Shown: positions 25,058-57,015 of the stretch, piece after piece
Position numbering within the stretch: the first letter of the stretch is position 1
Layout: each line of letters opens with the position of its first letter
DNA from: Nitrososphaeraceae archaeon
GTDB lineage: Archaea > Thermoproteota > Nitrososphaeria > Nitrososphaerales > Nitrososphaeraceae
Assembly: GCA_021325295.1 (NCBI GenBank)
Contig: JAJPHM010000023.1
Location: 1 to 64,000, forward strand
DNA length: 64,000 bases
Direction of reading: 5' to 3'
Notes under the pieces: generated by a model
What the model saw: only the letters and a program-made list of their open reading frames with translations
What the model was told of the DNA's origin: nothing
Databases searched by the model: none
Made by a program: the position numbers and the translations under genes

Positions 25058-26074
25058 ATGTCATCTCTAAAAGGCGACCTTGGGGGGCTCATGTGGTCAG
25101 AAAAATACCGGCCGTCAAGGCTTCAGGATGTCGTTGACCAGAAGGAGATAATTACTGCACTGACAAGCCTGATCAGGGGCTCTGACGTACCTCATATGCT
25201 CTTTGCAGGTCCTGCAGGGACCGGCAAGACCACCACTGCTCTTTGCGTCGCCAGGGAACTTTTGGGCGACGATTGGCGCAGAGATACCCTTGACCTCAAC
25301 GCCTCAGACGAAAGGGGAATCAAGATGGTCAGAGAGCGGGTAAAAGAATTTGCATCAGTTATGAAGCTGACGACAGATTCAAGCAAACAACATGACCGTC
25401 CATTTCGAATCATAATTCTCGATGAAGCTGACGAGATGACCCCTGATGCCCAGACAGCCCTGAGGAGGATAATAGAAGATAGCTCAAAGACTACGCGTTT
25501 TATATTCATCTGCAACTACCTGTCGCAGATTATAGAGCCAATACAGAGCAGATGCGCCGTCTTTAGGTTCACTAGGCTTCCTGAGGAAGAGGTCGTCGAT
25601 TACCTGAAGATGATATGTGAAAAAGAGAAGGTCAGGTACGAAGAGAGGGCTCTCTCTCAGATTTACAGCGCCACGATGGGCGACATGCGCCACTCAATTA
25701 ACATACTGCAGACTGCTGCAGGCATGGGCTCTGTCTCTGTTGCAACCGTGGCCTCATCTATCGGGCTATCAGGCAGAGCGCGAGTGGGAGAGGTTATCAG
25801 GATGGCTCTGGCCGGAAGATTCAATGAATCACGCGCCAAGCTGATGGAGCTTGTACAGGTGTACGGTATGTCAGAGACAGACTTTCTCAGATACGCCAAC
25901 CAGGAGGCCTATGAAATGAAACTCGACAGGCCTGACGAATTTGCAGAACTGATGGCAGAATATGACTATAGGCTGGCTTCTGGCGCGCACCCGGAAATCC
26001 AGCTTGCTGCGCTCTTGGCACAGCTTGGAAGGATTGGATTAAAGAGCAGGGAAGCCAAAGCAGAAAAGGCCTGA
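25058..26074 (+). CDS. rfcS: Replication factor C small subunit
   Basis: About 338 residues. The RFC boxes are clear: WSEKYRPSRLQDVVDQ, Walker A MLFAGPAGTGKTTTALCVAR, IIILDEADEMTPDAQTALRR (Walker B) and the SRC motif IQSRCAVFRF. It forms the clamp-loader pentamer with the large subunit and loads PCNA. The large subunit is not next to it. GTG at 25049 is an alternative start; I chose ATG 25058 because the protein then begins close to the conserved W-x-E-K-Y-R-P block. The upstream region is shared with the divergent GINS-mcm operon. Confidence 0.93.
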   Translation: MSSLKGDLGGLMWSEKYRPSRLQDVVDQKEIITALTSLIRGSDVPHMLFAGPAGTGKTTTALCVARELLGDDWRRDTLDLNASDERGIKMVRERVKEFASVMKLTTDSSKQHDRPFRIIILDEADEMTPDAQTALRRIIEDSSKTTRFIFICNYLSQIIEPIQSRCAVFRFTRLPEEEVVDYLKMICEKEKVRYEERALSQIYSATMGDMRHSINILQTAAGMGSVSVATVASSIGLSGRARVGEVIRMALAGRFNESRAKLMELVQVYGMSETDFLRYANQEAYEMKLDRPDEFAELMAEYDYRLASGAHPEIQLAALLAQLGRIGLKSREAKAEKA

Positions 26075-26656
26075 GCACGACCTGTAAGCTAAACTTGAGC
26101 ATCAAGCAAGCAAACGCCAGTTTGTGCTTTTAGACACTTTTTCTTCCCTTTTTGTCACCTGTAATGTCAGTTTTAGACTGCGAAGGGCCCACTTTGAGCC
26201 AAAATGGCGGATTTTGTGACAAATATTATCTATGACGCAAGAGCTGCATGCGTAGACGGTGGCACGACAGCAAGATTTGCAGCGTAATTTCCATGCAAAC
26301 TAGAGCAATTTGAGCCGATCTGACACGTTTTTGCATCGTTTTTTGTATTCTGCCAATGCGTGATACAGGCCACAGAGCAGGTGAGCACCACTATTTTGCA
26401 GCAATTGTCTCTGCCACAAAACTGCACTATCCTGTGCAATCTGGCGTGTTTTACATCTGTTAGCAGATGCTGCTCGGATGGGAACTAATTTTAGGATCGG
26501 TTCGTCGATCCTGGGACTGTTCTTCCTGTACCTGTTATCATACGGCAGACAGACGTATAGGTTTTACTGTCGGCTCTTTTCAGATCTGCCCCTTCCAGCC
26601 AGCCAACCAACCGGGCAATTAACCTGAACTGTAATCTCAACAACTTTTTTTCATTT
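26075..26656. other. Long gap between convergent genes
   Basis: About 580 nt between rfcS and the XTP pyrophosphatase gene, which point at each other. No convincing frame on either strand, no tRNA T-loop and no clear inverted repeat. Thymine-rich stretches (26135-26155, 26330-26345) could end rfcS transcripts. It might hold an RNA gene or a decayed gene, but I have no positive evidence. Confidence 0.4.
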
Positions 26657-27232
26657 TCATTTCCTGTTGCAATACCATGCAGCAAACTTGTCCAGTGCAT
26701 GCCTGCGGTGTGAAAACTCGCTTTTTCTGGCGCCAAGCTGTCCAAAAGTAAGGCTGGAATTTTCAGGGATAAAGACAGGGTCATAGCCCCATCCTTCACC
26801 TGCAGGTTCCATTGCAATCATGCCTTTCGACTGCCCGACAAACACTATGTTTTGCTTTCCATCAGAATATGCAATTGCAGACACAAACGATGCGGCCCTT
26901 GCCTTTCCTTCTGAGCCATCAAGGAGCCTGAGCAATCCCTTGTTTCCTATTGTCCTGAATACATATGACGAATACTGACCCGGAAAGCCTCCGAGGATGT
27001 CTACAAACAACCCATCGTCTTCTACAATTACCTGCCTGGATACTTTTTCAAAAGCACTCTTGGCCTTGTTTGCTGCGATCTCTTCAAGCGACTCTGACTG
27101 TATCTCGACAAGGCTTGCTTTGGCAAATGTTACGGTTATGCCATAGCTTGAGAGAATAGACTGGACTTCACGGAACTTGTCATGGTTGGTGCTAGCAAAG
27201 ACAATTTGCGGCAAATGCGGCCATCGTATCAT
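26657..27232 (-). CDS. XTP/dITP pyrophosphatase (HAM1/RdgB family)
   Basis: A 191-residue protein. Motifs: IVFASTNHDKFREVQSIL (N-terminal nucleotide-binding motif, usually T/S-x-N-x-x-K), EDDGLFVDILGGFPGQYSS, GEGWGYDPVFIPENSS and FSHRRHALDKF. The enzyme hydrolyses non-canonical purine triphosphates (XTP, ITP, dITP) to monophosphates and keeps them out of DNA. It lies downstream of bud32 on the same strand with a gap of about 110 nt; the same gene order occurs in other archaea. The start ATG/Met at 27232 is preceded by a GGC/AT-mixed leader without an obvious box. Confidence 0.87.
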   Translation of the reverse strand: MIRWPHLPQIVFASTNHDKFREVQSILSSYGITVTFAKASLVEIQSESLEEIAANKAKSAFEKVSRQVIVEDDGLFVDILGGFPGQYSSYVFRTIGNKGLLRLLDGSEGKARAASFVSAIAYSDGKQNIVFVGQSKGMIAMEPAGEGWGYDPVFIPENSSLTFGQLGARKSEFSHRRHALDKFAAWYCNRK

Positions 27233-31374: not shown

Positions 31375-31599
31375 TCAATTAGGAATTTCAATAATTATTT
31401 TCTTGTATTTCTTCGCAGCGTCTTCGAGAGTCTCTAGCACAAGCTGAATTGCTTCGGTCATGTTTCTCTTTAATTCTTCTATCGTATCTCCTTCGCTAAT
31501 GGCTCCTGGCAACTCTATGCACTGTCCAGTATATCCACCCTCAGGAGATTCTTGGATTCTAACAGTAAACTTCCGTCCACCAAGATTCTTGGCTGACAC
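31375..31599 (-). CDS. hicB: HicB-family antitoxin
   Basis: A 74-residue HicB. The partial RNase H-like fold shows as KFTVRIQESPEGGYTGQCIELPGA and SEGDTIEELKRNMTEAIQLVL, the family signature. It neutralises the HicA RNase encoded 61 nt upstream on the same strand. This short version lacks a DNA-binding tail, so autoregulation would need another protein. Toxin-first order is the common archaeal one. Intact. Confidence 0.85.
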   Translation of the reverse strand: MSAKNLGGRKFTVRIQESPEGGYTGQCIELPGAISEGDTIEELKRNMTEAIQLVLETLEDAAKKYKKIIIEIPN

Positions 31600-31660
31600 T
31601 CTGGCACTATTATCTTGATCTGATTATAAAAGTGTTCAAGCAGCGCTTGTTTAGTGGCTC

Positions 31661-31876
31661 TCAAAGCTCGGAAAGGAATTCATCTTTGGTTATCCCCGCT
31701 TGGTCAAGGATGGATTTCAATGTTGTCTCTTTTATGGGACTGTGCCTTGGGATGGTGGCGTACCTTCCGTCTGAATGAATCATAATAATATGGCTACCTC
31801 GCTGCCTCTCAGGTTTGAAACCTTTTCTACCGAGAACTTTCATGACATCGCGGTAATCATGGTTTCTAAGGCTCAC
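31661..31876 (-). CDS. hicA: HicA-family mRNA interferase toxin
   Basis: A 71-residue dsRBD-like toxin starting at GTG. The catalytic region RQRGSHIIMIHSDGRYATIP carries the GSH histidine. HicA cleaves mRNA and tRNA and is neutralised by HicB from the next gene. The pair is complete and appears functional. It borders the decayed toxin-antitoxin stretch to the right. A short AT-rich leader on the minus strand precedes it. Confidence 0.85.
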   Translation of the reverse strand: MSLRNHDYRDVMKVLGRKGFKPERQRGSHIIMIHSDGRYATIPRHSPIKETTLKSILDQAGITKDEFLSEL

Positions 31877-43900: not shown

Positions 43901-45253
43901 AAGGAAATAGCTGCTGGCAAATATTCCTGTATTGGGGCCGGTTTCTCGCATGGCCATAACCATATTGTCTATCACCTTTCCTCCTTGGTTAGAGGTAATA
44001 CGAACTTGTGCGGTGTCAACCTTTGTAGGATCGGTGTTCAAAGACGAATCATTCAGTTTTATTACTGCTCTGTCGTCTGCATAGTACACATCTCTGTCGA
44101 ATGATATTCCTGTGCTTGGAAGGACTGCTGCAGTTGCAGAAGCTCCACGAAATGTGGCAGTCAACATATCTCCACTGGGATTAACCACTATGTTCCCCGG
44201 AGGAATTGGTGTGTTGGCTGTCGTTGTCTTCAAAATCTTGAAGCTTGCAGAATACGCACATAAGTTAACACCCTGACCAGTGGGTGGACTTAATGCTTGA
44301 AAAGCAAATGATTGGAACACTTGATTTGCTTTATTCAAAACCGATACACTTCCTGACTGCAGATTCGGGCAGTTGCCTGACGAACCTGACGAATCCACAA
44401 TTTTGATCGAACCCTGATCGTTTCCACTATGGGTCGGGGAAGTCTCTATGCCATATACCGGATGGTCAAAACTTATCGAATACTGACTTGAGGATGCAAT
44501 CGCAGAAGCAGCTGATGTGCCAGCAATAGGTGATCCATTGCATTGAACAGGAGAAAATGATGCCATCATGCGAAATTGTGAGGGATTCTCAGCATTGAAT
44601 ATTTGAGAATCTGGCGGGATTACCGGCGAGTCAGCTTTCAACTGAGATCGCAATTGTGACAATAAATCGGTAATTTTCATGGTTCCCTTGAAAAGCTTGG
44701 TATTTGTGTCATCAAGAGACAGAGGAACTTTTATCGAAGCCAAAGGATTGGTGAATCCCGTCTGATAAAATGCTAGTTGGATCATAACAATGTTGCCAGT
44801 GTTGTAATTGCATACCAGATGATTTCCTTCAAGCGTTATGAAGGCAGTGTCATACATTCCGTATGAAGCCTTATCGAAATGTAATGTGGGTACGGGCGGC
44901 TGATAGGCTGGATCCATTACAACTATTACGATTGTAATTTGTGGTTGGGGCTGATTGCTTGTTGAAGCTGGTTGCGAAAAGGTAACGCCATAAGTTGTTT
45001 CTGTTCCTCCAGCAGATCCAGCGGGAGGGCTCCAGCTAAATACTCCTGATGAAAGACTAGCGCCAAGGGGTAAATCTGTGCTGTTTGTCCATCCCGTGCC
45101 TACAGGTATCGAAATAGGCTGGTTCTCTTGGACATAGTAGATATTTCCGTCAGCAGCAGGTGATGCTTGCGCAAATGCTGCCTGAAAGATCCATTCGTGA
45201 CTCAGTAAAGGAAGTCCCGAGATAATTCCACAAACAAGTATTACTGCTGTACG
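40901..45253 (-). CDS. Large surface metallopeptidase with PEFG anchor, start missing
   Basis: A coding frame of about 1450 residues; only the last 1338 follow an ATG (44917). Upstream it remains coding for about 110 residues, including an export signal (VILVCGIISGLPLLS, then AAFAQA), but no start codon is reached before a TGA: it is 5'-truncated. Later features are beta-rich repeats, a metzincin site THELGH-type (MHELGHNLGLNHGG, with SVMSYP as Met-turn, near residue 642 of the ATG numbering) and a C-terminal module ending VPEFGASAIVSIMLAIAIV, the PEFG-CTERM anchor. It is probably a secreted, wall-anchored protease. Functional only if a start is recovered. Confidence 0.75.
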   Translation of the reverse strand, partial: RTAVILVCGIISGLPLLSHEWIFQAAFAQASPAADGNIYYVQENQPISIPVGTGWTNSTDLPLGASLSSGVFSWSPPAGSAGGTETTYGVTFSQPASTSNQPQPQITIVIVVMDPAYQPPVPTLHFDKASYGMYDTAFITLEGNHLVCNYNTGNIVMIQLAFYQTGFTNPLASIKVPLSLDDTNTKLFKGTMKITDLLSQLRSQLKADSPVIPPDSQIFNAENPSQFRMMASFSPVQCNGSPIAGTSAASAIASSSQYSISFDHPVYGIETSPTHSGNDQGSIKIVDSSGSSGNCPNLQSGSVSVLNKANQVFQSFAFQALSPPTGQGVNLCAYSASFKILKTTTANTPIPPGNIVVNPSGDMLTATFRGASATAAVLPSTGISFDRDVYYADDRAVIKLNDSSLNTDPTKVDTAQVRITSNQGGKVIDNMVMAMRETGPNTGIFASSYFLSFNTTAPDGNNPIPRESSIRIASTGDTTIRVTGDFRPTTGSGPSGLLQGTVNVHSALRYVGTLSSASSGQGGSGFTPTPGNQVPSGGTSEIPCDTYGKNTTNDGICNYWKPGGQPLKVPYPAGGAYNSFPESCDPTCPDTTKKDIYVEIDYYGSNKPNSNALTNVKNAFSTSPVGNIRLHLEVGEDISQNSHIGGSYDYTKVLVWGNATGSCWTGGTSGCLSFDTLKFWNFGTSAEQTTSWTAGWSNKLQAKKQVYHYGLFVPYQAQDSQSSGNAEITGNDFIVSLGSYYNGVGSVDQQQGTLMHELGHNLGLNHGGPDALASVNPTINCKPNYLSVMSYPRQFTNAFANNTLNYSDDPMSPGSLDLTNLGESAGLQLTTSAQSNGNITWGVQNGQLELYSGISKNPEYIDWDNDGSGLNTNDADSSTQEPWVTSPPYNIPDVSQNLYPCNNIQANLGTATTLPGANDWSNLIYSFRSANSATFSNGQGNGLTEFDLKDLRAMRVSGINTLNYLVQTLNIHYFANGTVNGKSVVPSLVKQDFQNELFGNPATNYYIKDNVTKSVATLLQQDDVQTALNKMLLVRSYMDGYHGGAVRNDLFNPLGENAILPFMDNNIAEEKIELDKPYKDKTFTITSQTSSGTYTIKGNSSSITSLADTFTIDPTNKRISLRFVGQGDVTLYVPRSLATGFNGVEYEGTPEHISNGVTGNSTYTILNLKNLHYYPKMILGAYCVNQGNITYSANCGSLPGQPLTVSTNKQSYSGSETIVISGGVTPVAGQALLIEVFNPNGVLYRADTITPASDGTYSYDMKIGGRLGPSGTYTVVVYYNNQKAQTTFSYTNTNTIPPSPGPWHIVTVQVNGASYQIQYAISAGGTISSISADTGAVSLKASITSTSSGTLALKIPRNVLDSKTANGTDDDFVIFADGVPTANYNESGSDSTQRTIYINFDQGTQTIEIVGTHIVPEFGASAIVSIMLAIAIVGTIIAARHNRNSWFSNR

Positions 45254-45265
45254 ATCTTCTTGACG
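45250..45265. other. Junction where two opposing genes both lose their starts
   Basis: The coding signal of the minus-strand peptidase begins immediately left of this point and that of the plus-strand propeller protein immediately right of it. Neither has a start codon in its frame. The simplest reading is a deletion or rearrangement breakpoint that removed a divergent promoter region and both starts; an assembly error is possible. Confidence 0.55.
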
Positions 45266-48200
45266 TGGGATGCACCATTTGGAGGTTCAAATTTACAAAT
45301 CCTGTTTGCAAGAAGTACAGACAATGGCAAAACCTTCAGCACTCCAATTGCTCTGAGCAGCATTACTGAGTCGTTTACTGACCTTGGAATCGCAGGGTAT
45401 GGCAGCAATGTCTATGCCGTCTGGGACGATGATACACATACACCCGGAGTACCAGATATTTATTTCGCCAAAAGCAACAACAATGGAAGCTCATTTGGCA
45501 ATCCTATCAATATTAGCAATAATGCGGGCACATCATTAGTACCACAGATCGTAGTTTCTGCTGTCGGAAATATCTATATCACATGGCAGGATGATACACC
45601 AAATCCAGGATCCGAATCAGATGTCTTCTTTTCATCAAGCACCAATGGCGGAACGAGCTTTTCTAATCCTGTCATAGTCGGCACATCTGGCGGATCTGCC
45701 CAAACACCTAAAATTGTGACATCTGGAAAAAGCAGCGTCTATCTTGTGTGGAACGACTTTAGTGGAAATTCAGATGTCTTCTTTGCCAAAAGCAACAACA
45801 ATGGAAGCTTATTTGGTAGCCCTGTTAACATTAGCAATAACCCAAGTACGTCGACGCTTCCTCAGTTAGCTGTCTCTCTGGGCGGGACTATTTACGTGTC
45901 ATGGGTGGATTATGCTGTAGGTAATGGCGATATTTTTGTATCAAAGAGCACTGACGGAGGACAGACCTTCCAGAGTGCAATAGACATTAGCAATAATCCG
46001 ATAATGGCAACAAATCCCAGGGTATCCGTATCCGATAATAATCACATATACACGGTGTGGGAAGGAGACCCGGGATCAGGCGCTAATGACATATACTTTT
46101 CATACAGCTCAAACAACGGCACTACCTTTAGCAATCCTGTTGATATAAGTAACAACCCCGGATATTCTACATTACCTGTTCTGGCGTCTTTCGGAAATTC
46201 TTCATTTGTGGCATGGCAGGATTCGACATCGGGCAATCCACAAATTTTCTTTAGAACCATTCAAGAAACAGGACCTGCTTCAATAAGTATCGAATCAATC
46301 AACAATTCGGATCCTCTGTGGGGTCTGGATCAAGTTGCAGTAAGCGGAGTTGTGAATGCCAATACCACTGACAGCATCAACCTGGATTGGGGGGACGGCC
46401 AGTCCAGTTCACTTTCAATTAGCGGCACCGCTTGGGGGCCTGTTTCCCATACTTACAGTTCACAGCATGTTGGTGCCAACTTAATTACTGCAACTCTCAA
46501 AGATGCAAATGGCACCATTATTGCAACAAGTTCAAGTCATACAATCAATGTCCAGAAACACTCAACTGCACTTACCTTGAACTCAATTGGCAGTGTGATC
46601 CAATCCTCTAGTATTGTAGTTTCAGGTAGTTTAACTGATGTTTCTACCAATCCACCAGCTCAATTGCAGAACAAGCAGATAACATTCAATGGGACAGGTG
46701 CAGCCGGACTTGCCCCCGTCTTTACCATGGCCAACGGCTCCTATGCTGGCTCAGGTGTATCTCCAAACCTTGCGGCTGATCTTCTGGAAGTACAGGCACA
46801 TTTTGAAGGCGATGGACAGTATCTGGGCGCTAACAGCACGATTAGTACATATGACACTGTGGCAAATGGCGCAGCAAATTTCAATGTTCCTGCCGGAACG
46901 CCTTCACATGTCAATCTTGTCGGCTTTGGGGGCTCGATCGATTTTGACAAGGTGCAAAATGGGGGAAAGGTGTTTGTTTCCTCATGCAATTCTCCAGCGA
47001 GCCCAAGGTATACCACAGCAAATGAGTGTATAGAGATATCCCCCACCTTTGATGTAAGCCAAGGGTATGCACACATCCATCTATCTTTCAACAACCTTAC
47101 GCTGCCCCAAGGTTATACTTCAAATGATGTCGATATTTTCCATGACGACCTGTCTGGCATAGTGGATATTACGGAATCTCGGAATCTGACCAGTGAGGTT
47201 GTAACGGGAAGAACCATGGGCTTCAGCAAGTTTATTGTAGCCCCTGCGATCCATAGCGCTATTCTATCAGGCGCTGCAAGGCAACAATTGTTTGTAGGAA
47301 ATGATACATTGTTGTTTAATTTCAATGAAACACGACAGATTTCCTTGGATCAGACTTCTTATTCCATCGGTAGTACTCCAGTTATTACTGTTGTTGATCC
47401 AAATGCAGGTAGTTCATCTGTACACGAAATAAGTGCCACAGTAAGCTCATCCAGTGATCCACAGGGCATCATTGTTCCACTAAATGAAACGAGTCCGAAT
47501 AGCAATACCTTTACCGGTTCCTTTACTCTTGTATCTGGAGCCTCATCGTCTCACAATAAGATGCTACATGTTCAATCGGGAGATTCACTGAAAGCATCAT
47601 ATAATGCCGTCAATATGGCGCCCCTGAGTGTTGTCATAAGCGGCGTATCCGAAGCAGGACTTCTTGAGGTTTCTAACTACACTGCTCCTTCCGGGCTCTT
47701 CCCTATTGGTGATGGTCATAACGTTAGCCTTGTGGATGCCGCATTGACATCCAATGCTAACATTACTATTACAATGTCTTATGCTAACGTTTTGAGCACA
47801 AATTTCGATCCTGACGCAATGTCGATGTTACTGATGAAAGGTTCTATATGCGAGAACGATATAACTCTCAGGAACTCAACTGGATATCCGATAGGGCTGG
47901 ACAAAGCTGCAAAGACATTGACAGGGGAGACCCATAAATTAGGACAGTTTACATTGGCGTTTGCACCAATTTCGGGGCCCGGAGGAAATTGTCCGGGTTC
48001 AGGAGGCGGTGGAGGAGGTCTTTCGAGACCTGGCGCTGGAATAGTCCTTGATTCTGTGGCCTCTATTATCGCAGAACAGTCGGGAGGAGTTTGCATGTCT
48101 GGATGTTTCGCAGGTTCAAGCGGCGGCAGTTCTGGCTCTGCTCCAACTCAGCCACCATCCCCATCAAACCCATTACCACCTGCGCCTTCAATTTCTTCAC

Positions 48201-49192
48201 CACGAATTCCCTCTGGAACAGGAGTAGAGATCAATGTAACTATTCCAAATACAGGATCTACCCAGTCAGGTCCAGTCAACCAGCTGGGAGGCGCCGGCTC
48301 ACCACCCAATTCAAATGTCCAGCCCGGTCCACAAAATCCATCGTCACCACAAGTTTCCTTGGTGTTTGAAAAAGTGACATCTGGCGGGCTTGTCACGGTC
48401 AAGGAATACTCTCCGCTCCAACTTGCCAACCTGTTCTCTTCAGAGAACACAGTTTCAGGAACAGTCGATCTGCATAACAATATCTATTCGACAGCAGGCA
48501 CTCTGATTGATATATCTCCCATTACAAATGTCTCGCCCAGCCTGAACTTTACTGGCACTGTCGATGTAACTATTCCCTACAACCTGACTCTTGTCCATTC
48601 GCTTTCAACTGGTGGAAAGAACTTTACAGAATCTGACACAAGATTCCTGCACTACAACGGCTCTGCTTGGGAAGACGCAACAATATACGTAAACACTACA
48701 GCCAAGACTGTCACAGGAAGAGTATCTTCGCTGTCCCCTATGGTCGCGGCTGTTGTCAACGATGGAACATACGGCTCGGAATACTTTGATCTGCATCCTT
48801 TGAGCAAGGTGATGGTAGTAGTCAATTCAACCACAAGCCAGCAAAATGCAACATCTGCCGTCACCAATCCCGTTTTATTGCCTGCACCATCCGGCTCTAC
48901 CGCAGAGGTCAGGGCAGGACAGCAGGTAACGATTGGATTTATGCTGAAGAACCAGCAGCAGGCAAAGCAGCCCTACACAGCAATAATTGAAGTACTAGAC
49001 CAGAACGGCTATACTTCAAACGTCAACATCATCGGAGGAACGCTTGACACAGGCCAGACGATACCGGTAAATAGCACCTGGGTTGCACAAGACCCCGGCC
49101 AGTATACTGTAAAGGTGGTCATAGTCAGCAGCCTTTCCAGCGATACGCAGCTTCTCTCAGGACTGTCAACTGGCATATTGGATGTTCATTAA
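45260..49192 (+). CDS. Large secreted propeller/PKD protein, N-terminus missing
   Basis: A frame of 1310 codons from a weak TTG. It begins in the middle of a repeat (TWDAPFGGSNLQ) with no signal peptide. Residues 1-330 hold six sialidase-like repeats of about 50 residues (for example IYFAKSNNNGSSFGNPINIS), so the beta-propeller has probably lost a blade. A PKD domain follows (INLDWGDGQSSSL), then further beta domains and a Gly/Ser/Pro linker (about 905-1010). No CTERM anchor or membrane helix is visible at the end. Probably a secreted binding or adhesion protein. As it stands the gene may not be expressed properly. Confidence 0.72.
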   Translation: MTWDAPFGGSNLQILFARSTDNGKTFSTPIALSSITESFTDLGIAGYGSNVYAVWDDDTHTPGVPDIYFAKSNNNGSSFGNPINISNNAGTSLVPQIVVSAVGNIYITWQDDTPNPGSESDVFFSSSTNGGTSFSNPVIVGTSGGSAQTPKIVTSGKSSVYLVWNDFSGNSDVFFAKSNNNGSLFGSPVNISNNPSTSTLPQLAVSLGGTIYVSWVDYAVGNGDIFVSKSTDGGQTFQSAIDISNNPIMATNPRVSVSDNNHIYTVWEGDPGSGANDIYFSYSSNNGTTFSNPVDISNNPGYSTLPVLASFGNSSFVAWQDSTSGNPQIFFRTIQETGPASISIESINNSDPLWGLDQVAVSGVVNANTTDSINLDWGDGQSSSLSISGTAWGPVSHTYSSQHVGANLITATLKDANGTIIATSSSHTINVQKHSTALTLNSIGSVIQSSSIVVSGSLTDVSTNPPAQLQNKQITFNGTGAAGLAPVFTMANGSYAGSGVSPNLAADLLEVQAHFEGDGQYLGANSTISTYDTVANGAANFNVPAGTPSHVNLVGFGGSIDFDKVQNGGKVFVSSCNSPASPRYTTANECIEISPTFDVSQGYAHIHLSFNNLTLPQGYTSNDVDIFHDDLSGIVDITESRNLTSEVVTGRTMGFSKFIVAPAIHSAILSGAARQQLFVGNDTLLFNFNETRQISLDQTSYSIGSTPVITVVDPNAGSSSVHEISATVSSSSDPQGIIVPLNETSPNSNTFTGSFTLVSGASSSHNKMLHVQSGDSLKASYNAVNMAPLSVVISGVSEAGLLEVSNYTAPSGLFPIGDGHNVSLVDAALTSNANITITMSYANVLSTNFDPDAMSMLLMKGSICENDITLRNSTGYPIGLDKAAKTLTGETHKLGQFTLAFAPISGPGGNCPGSGGGGGGLSRPGAGIVLDSVASIIAEQSGGVCMSGCFAGSSGGSSGSAPTQPPSPSNPLPPAPSISSPRIPSGTGVEINVTIPNTGSTQSGPVNQLGGAGSPPNSNVQPGPQNPSSPQVSLVFEKVTSGGLVTVKEYSPLQLANLFSSENTVSGTVDLHNNIYSTAGTLIDISPITNVSPSLNFTGTVDVTIPYNLTLVHSLSTGGKNFTESDTRFLHYNGSAWEDATIYVNTTAKTVTGRVSSLSPMVAAVVNDGTYGSEYFDLHPLSKVMVVVNSTTSQQNATSAVTNPVLLPAPSGSTAEVRAGQQVTIGFMLKNQQQAKQPYTAIIEVLDQNGYTSNVNIIGGTLDTGQTIPVNSTWVAQDPGQYTVKVVIVSSLSSDTQLLSGLSTGILDVH

Positions 49193-49274: not shown

Positions 49275-49583
49275 ATGTATTACATGACAATGGATGTAGG
49301 AAATGTCACAGATAAAGGTCAAGTTACCATACCAAAACATCTTCGCAAAAAGTACAAGATTGATGATAAGGTCCTGTTTGTTGATACGGGAGACGGTGTT
49401 CTGGTAAGACAGGTACCGAAACTTTCAGAACTGAAAGGGATCTTGAAGGACTCGGTGGACCTTGACCGAATTAACCAGCAAGAGAAAAGACTTGAAGTAA
49501 CACGGCAGGAACGTCTCATGGCTGTGATTGAGCAGGCCAAAAATAAGAGAGAAAAGAGACTGGCAGATTGGCAAAGAAAATAG
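49275..49583 (+). CDS. vapB: AbrB-type antitoxin
   Basis: A 102-residue protein. The N-terminal swapped-hairpin is clear: GNVTDKGQVTIPKHLRKKYK. The rest is a helical toxin-binding part rich in Arg, Lys and Glu. The last 16 nt overlap the PIN gene, so it is coupled to it. An AT-rich element (ttacttataagttaag, about 49252-49267) lies closely upstream, so the start may be at a later Met (49284 or 49290). Intact pair with VapC. Confidence 0.8.
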   Translation: MYYMTMDVGNVTDKGQVTIPKHLRKKYKIDDKVLFVDTGDGVLVRQVPKLSELKGILKDSVDLDRINQQEKRLEVTRQERLMAVIEQAKNKREKRLADWQRK

Positions 49584-49987
49584 CAGTAGTGTTTGATAGC
49601 CAATCTCTGTTTTCTTTTTTCATGGGACAAGAGGGATCGGCTGAGGTTCAGGGTTTGTTGAGACAGATTGAGGCTGGAACGTGCGAAGGGTACATCAACA
49701 TCGTAAATCTGATAGAATTGCGTTACGTCCCTGCCCGAGCAGGAAAGGATTTCCTTGAGCAAAGCATAACCCGTTCTGGCATAAAAATTGTTCCGCTTGT
49801 AGTTGGGAATGTCTTGTGGAAAATTGCGGCCGAATTGAAGGCCAATTATGCCATCTCACTTGCAGATGCGTGTGCGGCTGCTACAGCAATATGGTTTGAT
49901 TGCGAGCTAGTGGCAGGCGCTGACCCAGAATTCAATCAATTACAAGATGCTGGCCTTATGAAAATACTGACCATTGGAAAGCTATAA
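49568..49987 (+). CDS. vapC: PIN-domain ribonuclease toxin
   Basis: A 139-residue PIN protein starting at TTG. The first catalytic Asp is in AVVFDSQSLFSFF, the second acid in NIVNLIELRYVPAR (Glu), and ISLADACAAATAIW and LVAGADPEF give the remaining acids. VapC toxins cleave tRNA or rRNA; the upstream AbrB-type protein is the antitoxin. The start overlaps vapB by 16 nt. All acids seem present, so it should be active. Confidence 0.83.
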   Translation: MAKKIAVVFDSQSLFSFFMGQEGSAEVQGLLRQIEAGTCEGYINIVNLIELRYVPARAGKDFLEQSITRSGIKIVPLVVGNVLWKIAAELKANYAISLADACAAATAIWFDCELVAGADPEFNQLQDAGLMKILTIGKL

Positions 49988-53704: not shown

Positions 53705-53753
53705 CTCGTGTAATTACCTGCCTCCTCTAGCAAGTTAATGAACTGACGAAATT

Positions 53754-56193: not shown

Positions 56194-57015
56194 TTACTTT
56201 GGCAGGAAAGTTAGTCCTCTGTTGTGCCTTGACGTGGTGACAACTACTGCAACTATGGCTATTGCAAGCACAATGGCAGCAACTGCTCCAGCGCCAAACT
56301 CTGGCACTACATGAATTACGGTACCAACTACCTCAATTGTCTGAGTTCCCTGGTCAAAGTTGATTGATACTGTTCTGTCCGAGGCTGTTGCTGTCTGGTT
56401 GACGTCGCTGGTTGGGACATCGTCGGCAAAGACGACAAAGTCATCGTCTGCTCCTGTGTCTGTCTTGGCATCAAGCACGGTTCTTGGTATCTTTAATTGC
56501 AGTGTTCCGCTAGAGGTAGATGTGATGTATGCCTTGAGTGAGGTGAATGTGGTGTCTGCAGTGATATTGTTGAGTGTTCCGCCAGTTATCATGTACTGAA
56601 CTGTAAAGCCCTGGCCGTTGTATGTCTGCCATCCTCCTCCTCCTGGTCCTGTTGTGATATTGTTTGTAAAGCTGAATGTTGTCTGGGCCTTTTGCTGGTT
56701 ATATGTGACCACTACGGTATAAGTTCCTGTTGGGCCTAGCTTGCCTCCAATCTTCAAGTTATAGTTGTACGAGCCATCTGCAGCAGGCACAATGGTGTCT
56801 GCCCTGTACAAAGCATTGCTTGGATTAAAGACTTCAATCAATAAAGCCTGGCCAGCCACTGGAGTGACTTTTCCCGAAACTACAATGGTGTCTCCTGATT
56901 GGTAGCTTGTCTTGTCTGTCTGCACGGTCGGGGCAGATGCGGCGTATGCGTTAGAACCTACCACGACGCCTGATGCTATCAGTATTGCTAATAGTGCATA
57001 TCCTTTATAGTACAT
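56194..57015 (-). CDS. PEFG-CTERM surface protein
   Basis: A 273-residue exported protein. Signal peptide about residues 1-26 (LLAILIASGVVVGSNAYAAS), then an Ig-like module with TDKTSYQSGDTIVVSGKVTP and TYTVVVTYNQQKAQTTFSF, a second beta domain (LQLKIPRTVLDAKTDTGAD), and the sorting end VVPEFGAGAVAAIVLAIAI followed by a basic tail. Nearly the same sequence makes up the last 250 residues of the large peptidase at 40901. A minus-strand TATA-like box (ggataaatagtaa, about 57049-57061) precedes it. Probably a structural surface protein. Confidence 0.82.
   Translation of the reverse strand: MYYKGYALLAILIASGVVVGSNAYAASAPTVQTDKTSYQSGDTIVVSGKVTPVAGQALLIEVFNPSNALYRADTIVPAADGSYNYNLKIGGKLGPTGTYTVVVTYNQQKAQTTFSFTNNITTGPGGGGWQTYNGQGFTVQYMITGGTLNNITADTTFTSLKAYITSTSSGTLQLKIPRTVLDAKTDTGADDDFVVFADDVPTSDVNQTATASDRTVSINFDQGTQTIEVVGTVIHVVPEFGAGAVAAIVLAIAIVAVVVTTSRHNRGLTFLPK

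Follow-up and report, generated by a model that had tools for sequence, protein, structure and literature searches.

Two long genes for secreted proteins, called here gene A (minus strand) and gene B (plus strand), both lack their proper starts at one point in the genome of a soil-type ammonia-oxidising archaeon of the Nitrososphaeraceae, with their bodies still open, and a single recent deletion of about 0.4 kb in a divergent gene pair, real in the cell, is the probable cause (probability about 0.76). Specifically, the two genes would once have stood head to head around a common AT-rich intergenic promoter region, and one recent deletion of roughly 0.4 kb would have removed this region, the first 4-5 codons of gene A and about 75 codons of gene B, the latter encoding the signal peptide and the strands before IFLTW, so that the two bodies would have been joined nose to nose at 45251-45256. 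The window, that is, the whole stretch of 64,000 nucleotides analysed, comprises bases 1-64000 of contig C38 (80,805 bp) of a fragmented short-read assembly (79 contigs, 2.69 Mb, 99.7% complete) that its nearest relatives place in the Nitrososphaeraceae, and literature searches found no published account of the locus.

The junction and the two open frames

No spacer separates the coding sequences of gene A and gene B at the junction (Table 1), and the two frames are otherwise open over about 4.4 and 3.9 kb. The point of loss that the sequence-only reading had set at about 45,253 is indeed shared by both genes, although it is better described as the interval 45251-45256 with an overlap of about 6 nt. 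An automatic gene finder would begin gene A at the ATG at 44917 and gene B at the TTG at 45260, and automatic callers would in this way report two intact but signal-less proteins, which is a warning for annotation.

Table 1. Positions of the features at and around the junction within the 64,000-nt window.
Feature	Position	Strand	Basis
Gene A, 5'-truncated secreted protein of ~1451 codons	40901..45256	-	translation, domain matches, ortholog with intact start in L346
First in-frame ATG of gene A, past the signal peptide	44915..44917	-	
Inverted pair, left arm, 19 nt (18/19)	45138..45156	+	repeat search
Gene A signal-peptide remnant RTAVILVCGIISGLPLLSHEWIFQAAFAQA	45164..45253	-	without start and first 4-5 codons
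Junction of gene A and gene B coding sequences, ACGATC/GATCGT, possible 6-nt overlap	45251..45256		
Gene B, 5'-truncated propeller, seven W-repeats (~45254-46290), then a long extracellular-type C-terminal part	45254..49192	+	
TTG likely taken as gene B start by an automatic gene finder	45260..45262	+	
In-frame TGA upstream of gene A, antisense within the first blade of gene B	45287..45289	-	
Inverted pair, right arm, 19 nt (18/19)	45558..45576	-	repeat search

The open frame of gene A runs from 45286 down to 40904 (1461 codons, with the residues ..QEDRTAVILVCGIISGLPLLSHEWIFQAAFAQA.. in its translation), and its first ATG, GTG or TTG is codon 123. This start-free gap is the largest in the window, all other open frames of at least 200 codons in the 64 kb having gaps of 29 codons or fewer, and a run of 123 start-free codons has a probability of ~0.007 under the codon usage of gene A itself; the earlier observation of a minus-strand frame that reads a signal peptide but meets no start before a TGA is thus borne out. 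The signal-peptide remnant aligns to MHTEKRSLLSSFLMAIL... of the ortholog described below. Moreover, gene A encodes a metzincin-type HExxHxxGxxH motif (HELGHNLGLNH), with weak reprolysin matches, and an MG2-like C-terminal region that ends in VPEFG and a hydrophobic tail. Although this tail reads VPEFGASAIVSIMLAIAIVGTIIAARHNR, gene A has no NCBIfam match to the curated PEFG-CTERM model, and the tail is therefore called only PEFG-like. A small secreted protein at 56194-57015 of the window, beside rpoH, is 60% identical to the C-terminal region of gene A, including the PEFG-like tail, and represents a free-standing paralog of the gene A C-terminus. A scan of genome contigs with gene A gave no relative.

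The open frame of gene B spans 45209-49189 (gene B itself counting 1312 codons), and its propeller homology starts at the ATC codon at 45254 (IFLTW, versus VYVVW in relatives), which falls at strand B of the first blade; the W-repeats number seven and recur every 51-55 aa. Gene B carries no signal peptide, and this agrees with the earlier description of a plus-strand frame that begins inside a propeller repeat without one. The missing part comprises about 75 N-terminal codons, those of the signal peptide included, in agreement with the about 65-80 residues that precede the equivalent of IFLTW in other propeller relatives. The residues before IFLTW are absent from the first repeat, and the last one ends early; loss of a ring-closing N-terminal segment would be expected to give this register. 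In a Foldseek search, the single-sequence model of gene B, of modest quality (pLDDT 57), matched sialidase-type propellers with E-values down to 5e-8, and the Pfam BNR_4 match fell below the cut-off; a PDB sequence search with gene B gave no match. Gene B thus has both the seven repeats and the propeller fold of a seven-bladed sialidase/BNR-type propeller. A toxin-antitoxin-like pair, a MazE-type antitoxin and a PIN toxin, lies directly 3' of gene B (window 49275-49987).

An intact divergent pair in a relative

If a deletion had removed the shared promoter and both starts, a relative could be expected to keep the two genes head to head, with their starts and intergenic DNA. Such a pair was then found, so that the single-deletion model, which had been proposed from the sequence, is well supported. 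When 70 genomes of the family were searched with the N-terminal 351 residues of gene A, one further genome, G076 of the Nitrososphaera group, was found to carry this N-terminus. Its contig C29 (L346) encodes a collinear gene A ortholog (26% identity over gene A residues 81-749, E=2e-43), a 1552-aa open frame in the search, that starts with an ATG at L346:558 and encodes the signal peptide MHTEKRSLLSSFLMAILTISVIST. Directly upstream stands a divergent propeller gene that encodes a signal peptide of its own, KGRLFFGFVVAFLIAMSMYTFDIGYA, and matches gene B residues 1-57 in register, its first blade being aligned to the first remaining residue of gene B. The comparison with relatives for the missing starts therefore yielded a divergent pair that keeps both starts and its intergenic region.

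The codons that abut in the window are 395 bp apart in G076, a distance made up of ~15 bp of the gene A ortholog, 155 bp of intergenic DNA (~21% GC) and ~225 bp from the propeller gene, the last value assuming that the start is the GTG at L346:402. Gene order, orientation and domain register are the same as in the window and the gene A ortholog is collinear, whereas the G076 pair differs in having starts, signal peptides and the 155-bp AT-rich intergenic region, with a protein identity of only about 26%. The intact pair is seen in this one relative, and, since the G076 propeller gene is cut by the contig end, its orthology to gene B is judged from about 57-85 residues and from its position. 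Propeller genes are only a handful in the whole G076 genome, so that a chance placement of a divergent propeller gene beside the gene A ortholog is unlikely. The pair is hence most simply older than the junction in the window, which lacks exactly its middle. In two further relatives, weakly matching homologs of the gene A metallopeptidase follow a propeller-like region within one protein (L086:2939-7387 in G019 and L087:3426-6521 in G031); these fusion-like homologs give a faint hint that propeller and peptidase may work together.

Alternative origins of the junction

The loss could lie in the assembly, with an intact divergent pair in the cells and an assembler or a chimeric read that left out the intergenic DNA together with the starts, a possibility that we consider unlikely but deserving of some weight. 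DNA of ~21% GC, the composition of the G076 intergenic region, is prone to low short-read coverage; such a coverage dip, however, would not account for the ~225 bp of ordinary gene B coding sequence that an artefact must also drop. Metagenome misassembly is common, one estimate being 3-12% of contigs (PMC10174551), but the junction bears none of the marks that were looked for. Contig ends in this genome overlap by 106-107 nt, and the last 107 nt are common to another end in 100 of the 152 unmasked ends, which indicates a k=107 de Bruijn assembly. In this graph the junction sits mid-contig, with no N bases; no 13-mer is common to 45101-45420 and any unmasked contig end; and the junction 17-mer occurs once in the genome, even when two mismatches are allowed. 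All contig-end comparisons cover the unmasked ends, the short contigs C7, C8 and C27 being masked, and among these ends neither leftover start fragments of gene A or gene B nor a repeat, shared k-mer or matching loose end was found; a minor intact allele on a short unbinned contig would escape these comparisons. Composition does not change across the join: the codon usage of gene A and gene B is near-identical (cosine 0.955) and their tetranucleotide distance (0.175) is below that of every pair among the sixteen fixed 4-kb blocks of the window, which places both genes in one genome. An assembly join, which the sequence-only reading had listed as an alternative, is accordingly disfavoured, with neither a branch nor a repeat at the junction. 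The missing starts, the abrupt junction and the intact divergent pair of a relative can be read directly from the sequences; that the loss took place in the cell, how large it was exactly and that function went with it are inferred.

The genes might be undamaged, with near-cognate starts (for example ATC or ATA for gene A and the TTG at 45260 for gene B) or with an indel error that hides the start of gene A, which is extremely improbable. The TTG is among the permitted start codons, and an ATG on the minus strand (MVHPTSRRS..), one base out of frame, lies before a signal-peptide-like stretch; this ATG, however, sits antisense inside conserved gene B sequence, gene B would still be without its signal peptide and its propeller-closing strands, no promoter region is left for either gene, and the relative G076 has normal starts. 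A promoter scan of the bacterial type, which does not apply to archaea, stayed at chance level.

Phase variation by inversion of a surface-gene segment, of which the assembly would show one orientation, had also been suggested, and it is hardly credible. On either side of the junction, 401 nt apart, lie the arms of a 19-nt inverted pair (18/19). No other pair of this kind (gap 50-600) is present in the window, and 40 simulated windows produced none. Surface genes with an inverted repeat near the junction recall the phase-variable invertible promoters and surface genes of the Bacteroides type (PMC5903667), but here there is no productive orientation, no sign of both orientations and, among the neighbours scanned, no recombinase. 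Specifically, the junction lies inside the segment, so that flipping it leaves both frames startless, and no start codon for the gene A or gene B frame occurs in either orientation. The two arms encode similar GNIY peptides of gene A and gene B, ADGNIYYV and AVGNIYIT; the assembly graph has no branch; and no invertase, integrase or site-specific recombinase is present among the neighbours scanned against Pfam and NCBIfam. A real inversion does exist in the window, with breakpoints elsewhere. It covers 27.6 kb (~26.1-53.7 kb) when compared with a gene order reconstructed from Nitrososphaera G011, G019, G025 and G031, spans Ham1 to a zinc-ribbon gene (znr), including a YchF-type GTPase, queC, queE and folE, and its breakpoints (26074-26657 and 53705-53753) each fall between convergent gene 3' ends, far from the junction. 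Another inversion or translocation that broke both genes and carried their starts elsewhere in the genome is very unlikely. The 27.6-kb inversion surrounds the locus, and the folE-znr region (35.5-53.4 kb) has no syntenic counterpart in stretches from the four Nitrososphaera genomes, but that inversion broke at 26.07-26.66 and 53.70-53.75 kb, no start fragments were found where a junction-sized inversion would have left them at its other end, and the divergent order is already present in G076, so that no inversion is needed.

Age, consequences and genomic surroundings

Under the single-deletion reading, gene A and gene B, deprived of starts and promoter, would probably be unexpressed or not secreted, and would thus be fresh pseudogenes. 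Stop codons would be created by 4.1% of single substitutions in gene A and 3.5% in gene B, and no stop occurs within about 8.3 kb of their coding sequence, from which the loss is estimated to be younger than about 1% neutral divergence (95% level, indels ignored). The locus does not differ in kind from divergent-promoter deletion pseudogenes, in which likewise both starts and the shared promoter go with a single lost segment, the coding bodies remain open and a relative keeps the intact divergent pair; it stands out only in its near-zero spacer and in its long (1451 and 1312 codons), undecayed bodies. As a relative still has the missing stretch, it is most probably a case of ordinary recent gene loss and not a switch. 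It is a long shot that deleted and intact alleles occur together in the population, the deletion serving to silence two co-regulated surface proteins in one step, for example under virus or grazer pressure, and that the flanking inverted pair helped to produce the deletion. The case suggests that a single small deletion can take out two large secreted proteins together in an ammonia-oxidising archaeon, and it draws attention to a conserved neighbour pair, a propeller protein and an extracellular metallopeptidase.

About 18 kb of the window between folE and znr (35.6-53.3 kb), which carries both genes, is nearly without counterpart in the stretches compared from four relatives and is apparently a lineage-specific island. 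Other origins of the junction were considered and rejected. The reversed queC-queE-folE order had pointed to an inversion ending at the junction, which was rejected because start fragments are missing at 30.7-33.3 kb and full synteny gives breakpoints at 26.1-26.7 and 53.7 kb; a tandem-to-divergent inversion, suggested by the one-strand homologs in G019, was dropped, as only domains are common there. A second broken propeller gene is present in the genome (L017, G000:C35:69590-69868), with a signal peptide and about two blades before a terminal TAG; it was rejected as the lost start of gene B, given that the blades are already inside it and a stop is at its end. Lastly, a HicA/HicB toxin-antitoxin-like pair lies to the left of queC, at 31375-31876 of the window.
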